This document shows, in pieces, positions 3,522 through 59,651 of a stretch of 64,000 nucleotides of DNA. Position numbers and translations under genes: made by a program. The stretch comes from Holothuria scabra (lineage: Eukaryota; Echinodermata; Holothuroidea; Aspidochirotida; Holothuriidae), in NCBI GenBank assembly GCA_037179385.1, contig CM074193.1, forward strand, positions 3,617,547-3,681,546. The letters run 5' to 3'. The stretch's first letter is position 1; each line of letters begins with the position of its first letter. The notes below the pieces were generated by a model. The model made no database searches. It worked only from the letters and a program-made list of their open reading frames with translations, and had not been told where the DNA came from.

Positions 3522-3648
3522 ATGTTGGTGAAAAGTTTGCCTATTTTTTTAGCATTTATAATTGTCACTATTATTATGAATCAAAACTATTTTTCATTTC
3601 CATCTATTCATGGGACAGACGATAATGACGTTTCTACGAATCTCAAAG
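3522..3648 (+). CDS. Exon 1: signal-peptide exon
   Basis: The ATG opens 42 codons plus one base before the donor GTAAGA. Residues 1-19 have a Lys-containing start and a hydrophobic core ([12 protein letters not shown]), typical of a secretory signal peptide; the mature start then becomes acidic ([10 protein letters not shown]). An in-frame TAA lies upstream at about 3487, and no in-phase acceptor lies between that stop and the ATG, so this is the first coding exon. Confidence 0.7.

Positions 3649-59651: not shown

Follow-up and report, generated by a model that had tools for sequence, protein, structure and literature searches.

Introduction

Micro-exon genes (MEGs) with symmetric exons are known above all from parasitic flatworms, in which they are thought to vary secreted, host-facing proteins. 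Vertebrate tropoelastin, a repetitive extracellular protein, is encoded by many small exons of the same phase, which are separated by large introns and cassette-spliced. The exons of Dscam encode parts of Ig domains, and one is chosen per cluster, whereas the PEVK region of titin belongs to an intracellular protein. As described in two reports on the MEGs of Schistosoma, most of the coding sequence lies in very small symmetric exons whose skipping keeps the frame, long exons flank them, the first of which carries the signal peptide, and many of the products are disordered, rich in Thr, Ser and Pro, and predicted to be O-glycosylated (PMC4350168, PMC4671649). The products are small, with a median of about 7 kDa in the set given in one of these reports (PMC4671649), and MEGs appear restricted to platyhelminths in the account published in 2015 (PMC4350168). 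The SpTransformer (Sp185/333) genes of the sea urchin are described as shorter than 2 kb and composed of two exons, and alternative splicing is excluded in that description (PMC5491942).

The window analyzed here is a stretch of 64,000 nucleotides (C15:3617547-3681546), in which an earlier note had described, from the letters, a 56-kb gene made of symmetric micro-exons. In our analysis, the window likely holds the 3' portion of a single very long gene, or of a few adjacent genes of the same family, composed of symmetric phase-1 exons of about 12 to 126 nt and predicted to encode a long, low-complexity, cysteine-free protein.

Materials and Methods

Position 1 is the first letter of the window, and negative positions lie upstream on contig C15. 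The assembly searched comprised 1.19 Gb in 31 contigs, of which C6 and C15 measure 57.0 and 47.8 Mb. Splice sites were scored with a generic animal matrix, which was fixed before any result was obtained and left unaltered. The first, strict splice cut-off returned almost nothing and was loosened afterwards; results are given for cut-offs 6 to 9. Stretches between AG and GT were tallied by length class and open frame, with the 2+3n+1 split as the target class, and the tallies contain overlapping pairs and duplicate copies.

Results

Symmetric phase-1 exons on the forward strand

At a combined score of at least 7, the window contained 14 open 2+3n+1 stretches on the + strand and none on the - strand. 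In 120 simulated windows (third-order Markov), such stretches averaged 2.65 and never exceeded 10. The count was 19 at score 6 (simulated mean 5.54, maximum 16) and 9 at score 8 (simulated mean 1.18, maximum 6). Only one of the remaining eight classes was clearly raised, namely that in which these multiples of three are read in frame (10 vs 2.6 at score 7). The scan was also applied to the 150 kb upstream, a sequence that was not seen when the earlier note was made; at a score of at least 9, 26 phase-1 stretches were detected on the + strand and none on the - strand, and the six other-length classes summed to 1 and 8, respectively. Between -152 and +60 kb, this cut-off gave 34 stretches on the + strand vs 0 on the - strand, and the two strands of an 80-kb control region from contig C6 gave 0 and 3. 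At score 7 the control was not empty: its strands gave 2 and 8, and those of the array region 58 and 5. A splice matrix trained on 46 exons returned 47 stretches on the + strand and none on the - strand at cut-off 18, a count that is partly circular because the training exons were hand-picked.

The reading frame was assessed in 24 strong pairs of at most 66 nt, whose lengths were multiples of three and which were picked with the frame ignored and near-copies removed. In this set, which still holds several variants of the 42-nt family and the stretch 21171-21215, phase 1 was open in all 24 pairs, as against 21 for frame 0 and 7 for frame 1. Phase 1 was also the sole open frame in the longer exons 4991, 44148 and 47445. 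When lengths up to 240 nt were allowed, only 26 of the 38 pairs were open in phase 1 and 10 had no open frame, indicating that the long pairs are mostly noise. Exons of 36 nt or less accounted for 24 of the 41 upstream exons and 5 of the 14 internal exons of the window, all of which had been picked beforehand as symmetric.

On the basis of the enrichment, the upstream test, the control and the openness of the frame, the symmetric phase-1 micro-exons of the + strand are real as a class. The proposal that small symmetric phase-1 exons with splice sites occupy the + strand from 3.5 to 59.6 kb was thus confirmed above the level of chance, as judged from the simulations, the other strand and the upstream sequence, and the symmetric exon lengths bear out that skipping any exon keeps the frame.

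Exon model of the window

The features of the window are listed in Table 1. Our independent model joins 17 exons into 359 codons without an internal stop or cysteine. It agrees in these respects with the open frame of 354 codons that had been put forward previously, with which an exon-by-exon match is impossible, as the list of 17 internal exons behind it was not given. The model still includes the stretch 21171-21215, which was dropped as an exon because it forms part of a dispersed repeat; dead copies of this stretch occur twice, near 32125 and 35112. The 12-nt candidate QFP is weakly supported because it is so short. At the 3' end, the stop and AATAAA of the terminal exon proposed earlier were found, but its acceptor at 59599 was weak (score 1.7), and the exon at 59226 offers the alternative stop.

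Table 1. Positions of exons, candidate exons, repeats and duplicated segments in the window
Feature	Position	Strand	Evidence
27-nt symmetric micro-exon RTGAEEPA, related to 5906-5932	1689-1715	+	Splice scan; homology including intron flank
27-nt symmetric micro-exon NAEEQDTS, related to 6523-6552	2310-2336	+	Splice scan; homology including intron flank
Palindromic MITE-like repeat copy around the proposed start codon at 3522	3439-3562		Genome match
Signal-peptide exon of the earlier note, doubtful first exon	3522-3648	+	Splice scan; signal score; alignment
30-nt internal micro-exon candidate DNDVSTNLK, related to -4331	3619-3648	+	Alignment
78-nt cationic exon, related to 75-nt exon at -3837	4991-5068	+	Splice scan; alignment
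27-nt micro-exon RAGDQASV	5906-5932	+	Splice scan; homology
30-nt micro-exon ENNGAQDNI	6523-6552	+	Splice scan; homology
Segment duplicated at about 29732-38112; carries 30-nt exon	15257-24156		Self-comparison
45-nt exon-like stretch in dispersed repeat, probably no exon	21171-21215	+	Dead copies
30-nt micro-exon EADATGEPA	22785-22814	+	Splice scan; duplication
Second segment copy, partly re-duplicated (31860-33653 = 34849-36639, 98%)	29732-38112		Self-comparison
30-nt micro-exon EAGATGDPA, intact duplicate of 22785-22814	37059-37088	+	Segment duplication
12-nt candidate micro-exon QFP, weak support	40417-40428	+	Splice scan
51-nt exon, phase-1 frame alone open	44148-44198	+	Splice scan; frame count
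78-nt exon, strongly cationic; alternative in-frame donor 45506	45375-45452	+	Splice scan
99-nt exon; alternative in-frame acceptor giving 46597-46680	46582-46680	+	Splice scan
126-nt exon, best-supported long exon, phase-1 frame alone open	47445-47570	+	Frame count; genome search
42-nt exon	53029-53070	+	Splice scan
93-nt exon; alternative in-frame donor after 53339	53313-53405	+	Splice scan
75-nt exon	58346-58420	+	Spotted by eye, missed by scan
84-nt exon; may be terminal instead, reading on to stop at 59362	59226-59309	+	Splice scan
Proposed terminal exon, containing a stop; AATAAA starts at 59650	59599-59651	+	Weak acceptor

Several other features were observed in the window. An open frame at 11683-12672 (+) carries a GIY-YIG domain (Pfam) and is, by its letters, presumably a fragment of a Penelope-type retroelement; the stretch 14246-14644 (-) is similar to it by letters only. 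A retroelement frame with a zf-RVT domain lies at 48331-49707 (-), in the intron after the 126-nt exon. Three tRNA-like genes on the + strand, at 663-734, 50921-50983 and 51493-51565, are probably SINE-like, and the first of them sits within a long inverted repeat (303-518 against 838-616). A cluster of short palindromic tandem repeats with CTTCCCATATGGGAATT-like units extends over 17034-19824. A frame of 147 aa at 24416-24859 (-) gave a sub-threshold match to a capsid family of large DNA viruses (E 0.022), which is probably due to chance.

Extent of the array

The exon at -151777 was the furthest upstream, and no exon candidate scoring at least 5 was found by the splice scan from there to -160 kb. 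With exons from -151.8 to +59.3 kb, the array measures at least 211 kb. The self-contained 56-kb gene starting at 3522 that had been proposed therefore looks like the 3' part of this array, which begins at least 150 kb further upstream. About 55 exons were listed (53 and two more), including a few doubtful ones such as those of 12 nt, and several exons of the 359-codon model score below the cut-off used for the list of 53. The upstream exons fall into families, comprising SADANATTTAQ and SSDTNATTPAQ (36 nt), GDGSD/SDESD (18 nt), ATANSTEDA/ETGGSTEAT/VNNGNAGAS (30 nt), TDFSSDSA (27 nt), ASPGP (18 nt) and ETQDTAKTTTPSS (42 nt). Two intervals could separate genes, namely -58 to -36 kb, where no exon candidate was found by the splice scan, and -129 to -102 kb, where the candidates were weak only. 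A possible terminal exon with a stop and AATAAA was detected at -3837.

Downstream of the window, cysteine-rich exons were observed on the + strand from +89.6 to +113.7 kb. When exons were joined into four sets, one of the sets matched fibrinogen-C (Pfam); a PDB search with one set yielded nothing closer than a weak match to a different protein. We take these exons to resemble half fibrinogen modules of neurexin IV/CNTNAP, in several copies.

Duplication and decay of exons

The duplicate pair of the window (15.3-24.2 and 29.7-38.1 kb) is about 81-93% identical in blocks, and the exon at 22785 was copied intact to 37059 by this segment duplication, with two amino-acid changes. In the upstream sequence, blocks of about 0.4 to 4.6 kb have been duplicated, and with them one exon after another. 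The 42-nt exon was compared in 24 copies, of which 16 retain the AG and GT, the length, the open frame and a splice score above 3. The other 8 do not, although at least two of these (-17962 and -9229) are frame-open and fail the splice-score cut-off only. The exon of four old copies retains 65-75% identity to the young copies. Their upstream intron is near the shuffled level in three cases (0.46, 0.44 and 0.42 vs 0.49, 0.40 and 0.39) and exceeds it in the remaining one (0.48 vs 0.36), and the downstream intron ranges from 0.33 to 0.71, with the -19468 copy clearly above the shuffled level. These results demonstrate that exons are gained and lost by tandem duplication and decay of splice sites. 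Since intact, young and dead copies of one exon adjoin, the birth and death of exons can be dated.

A whole-genome search with the region of the 42-nt unit gave 11 matches, every one at this locus, although it missed several older copies. The 126-nt exon and the region 5840-6640 each matched only themselves, the latter search missing diverged relatives at 1.6-2.4 kb, only 4 kb away, and a query of 200 C-terminal residues found this locus alone. Because the searches were not exhaustive and passed over known diverged relatives, they speak only for the absence of close copies elsewhere.

The tests of selection were mixed and were not counted as support. The pN/pS ratio was 0.95 in the 42-nt family, higher in several other families with tiny counts, and 2.3 as a family average from such counts; it was not below 1 overall, so that constraint at the protein level is unsupported by this ratio. 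Exons diverged less than their intron flanks in 6 of 9 families and more in the remaining 3.

The exon at 3522

A signal peptide had been assigned to the exon at 3522. In the genome search, the region 3439-3552, including the ATG, matched contig C6 at 73%. The C6 copy, which has relatives elsewhere on C15, is palindromic: 249 nt of it are 82% identical to their reverse complement. A paralogous gene on C6 was ruled out as the source of this match, as the C6 sequence proved to be a palindromic repeat lacking the ATG. Near palindromic repeat copies at C6:35589680-35598889 (-), three 18-nt phase-1 exon-like stretches (HSDGP, YSDGT and HSDGT) were observed, which probably belong to the repeat.

Over 264 kb, signal-like ATG exons were not more common on the + strand (9) than on the - strand (14). 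By a crude signal score, exon 3522 was second of the 29 candidates on the + strand and has a strong donor; when the score and a strong donor were combined, 3522 and 89613 stood out on this strand. The stretch 3619-3648 with its flanks aligned to the internal exon at -4331 with a score of 24 (maximum 21 in 300 shuffles), and the exon at 4991 aligned to that at -3837 with a score of 30.5, as against 24 for shuffles. The pairs -4331/3619, -3837/4991, 1689/5906 and 2310/6523 thus form a collinear block of four exons. The simplest reading is that 3619-3648 would be an internal micro-exon and the preceding hydrophobic frame accidental; an alternative promoter near 3522 is possible. Given an ATG that belongs to a palindromic repeat and a 3' end similar to the internal micro-exon at -4331, the supposed signal-peptide exon is doubtful as a first exon. 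The claim of secretion in the earlier note rests on this exon, which is probably itself an internal micro-exon beside a repeat.

Two upstream frames were observed as candidates for a signal exon. A signal-peptide-like frame, MIKLLQCLLSLIVINTFRAYHAEPSFR, lies at -159484, 7.7 kb before the first exon of the array, and has a weak phase-1 donor; it is a candidate for the true first exon, picked by eye and outside the top eight by crude signal score. A second, unproven candidate lies at -153269.

The predicted protein

The 17-exon model of the window encodes 359 residues with a calculated pI of 8.5. In searches confined to this model, no Pfam family (E up to 1) and no PDB sequence (E up to 10) was matched, in agreement with the earlier view that the protein belongs to no recognized family. 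Its description as cysteine-free likewise holds, both for the model and for the 53 listed exons, which contain no cysteine in 576 residues where about 20 would be expected at 3.5% (random open segments), although duplicated exons make this count less independent than it appears. The upstream exon peptides (404 residues) contain 21.5% Thr, 17.6% Ser and 6.4% Pro and together make up a long Ser/Thr/Pro-rich region in the manner of mucins, and the peptides of the window exons are more basic. One exon pair has a collagen-like look. The product is probably a disordered, mucin-like, probably O-glycosylated extracellular protein.

Discussion

In the reading that we consider likely, transcription of the locus would yield a single long gene unit or a small number of them, and the introns of the same phase would make every exon a removable cassette. 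Each exon, set between phase-1 introns, adds or removes a whole number of codons, so that its gain, loss or skipping leaves the frame intact, and the length and sequence of the protein may consequently vary over evolution and perhaps between transcripts. Combinatorial splicing would follow easily from such symmetric exons. The protein would be extracellular, secreted or on the surface; a disordered, O-glycosylated component of mucus, matrix or a coat is the most likely form.

Two alternatives deny a working gene of this kind. It is extremely improbable that the exons are splice-like patterns produced by chance or by repeats and selected in the earlier note: such an origin does fit 21171-21215, the start codon at 3522 and perhaps the exons of 12 nt, but it is opposed by the simulations, the other strand, the C6 control and the upstream sequence that served as an out-of-sample test. 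The locus might instead be dead or dying: a former micro-exon gene now drifting, whose exon copies are kept by recent duplication alone, would account for the 8 defective copies among the 24 of the 42-nt exon, the pN/pS near 1 in that family and the dead copies of the 21171 stretch. We regard this as unlikely, however, since diverged families keep open frames and lengths divisible by three (36, 39 and 42 nt), long exons with no close copies remain open, and the exons of old copies persist where similarity of the introns has mostly gone.

The remaining alternatives concern the boundaries of the gene and the nature of its product. The most serious of them, tentative rather than probable, posits two or more adjacent genes of the same family, a mucin-like one ending upstream of about 3.4 kb and a separate one starting at 3522 with a signal peptide. 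The high rank of 3522 among the 29 + strand candidates and its strong donor are consistent with this division, as are the parallel of the block -4331, -3837, 1689 and 2310 with 3619, 4991, 5906 and 6523, which resembles a tandem gene duplication, the shift from Thr/Ser-rich peptides upstream to more basic ones in the window, and the possibility that exon -3837 is terminal, reading on to a stop and AATAAA. It is countered by the location of the ATG in a repeat and by the alignment of the 3' end of the 3522 exon with the internal exon at -4331 (24 vs a maximum of 21); moreover, no terminal exon was found in 2336-3400 when an acceptor of at least 3, a stop and AATAAA were required, and an end at -3837 would strand exons 1689 and 2310 without a gene. 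That the array forms the N-terminal, mucin-like stalk of the fibrinogen/CNTNAP-like gene about 30 kb downstream is very unlikely. The downstream gene lies on the same strand, its exons are also phase 1-1 and one exon pair has fibrinogen-C similarity, but the intervening 30 kb contains scattered candidates only (three listed above score 6.5), the downstream gene comes with a separate candidate for a signal-like first exon (89613-89784, strong donor), and a possible stop and AATAAA lie at 59.6 kb. To a multi-peptide antimicrobial precursor, in which cationic exons would be the peptides and acidic micro-exons the spacers, we give slightly less credence still. Cationic exons (4991, +7; 45375, +8) and acidic exons do occur within one model, yet the hydrophobic moments of 10 exon peptides were not significantly above those of shuffles (lowest p 0.077), and the upstream array is rich in Thr and Ser. 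Our preferred reading is that the window covers the 3' portion of a single very long gene or of a few neighbours.

If this is true, a locus that follows the logic of MEGs but is far larger, probably in an echinoderm, would show phase symmetry to be a general route to new extracellular proteins, by which a gene could grow, lose and shuffle exons freely. A more far-reaching version, which we consider rather unlikely, is that a non-flatworm animal possesses one diversity-generating locus of more than 50 interchangeable micro-exons, in which duplication, decay and combinatorial splicing would give each individual or cell a different set of extracellular mucin-like proteins, with a role, for example, in the defence of mucosae or in immunity. 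Such loci are probably missed by gene finders designed for longer exons, and others may have been overlooked.

Compared with the known systems, the array resembles SpTransformer, as described in the source cited above, in being a diverse echinoderm locus of sequence blocks amid repeats; membership in that family is excluded by its dozens of exons over at least 211 kb. Like Dscam-type arrays and titin PEVK, it consists of tandemly duplicated, frame-compatible exons. It shares small exons, a single phase and large introns with tropoelastin, and the alternating pattern of hydrophobic Val/Pro/Gly and cross-linking Lys/Ala exons that marks tropoelastin was not apparent by eye in the peptides of the 53 exons. 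The array differs from MEGs, as far as the cited accounts describe them, in its extent of more than 211 kb, its exons of up to 126 nt, the absence of a secure signal exon and its location in a genome that looks more like that of an echinoderm. In a nuclear copy of mitochondrial COX1, AAA is read as Asn and TGA as Trp, and the AAA aligns with the Asn of two solved COX1 chains; flatworms and echinoderms have this code in common, and the protein letters of this single fragment, together with chromosomes of about 50 Mb, would favour an echinoderm, perhaps a sea cucumber. The likeness to flatworm MEGs drawn in the earlier note is a good structural analogy rather than a demonstrated kinship, in which small symmetric exons are predicted to encode a Thr/Ser-rich product here as in the MEGs of those accounts.
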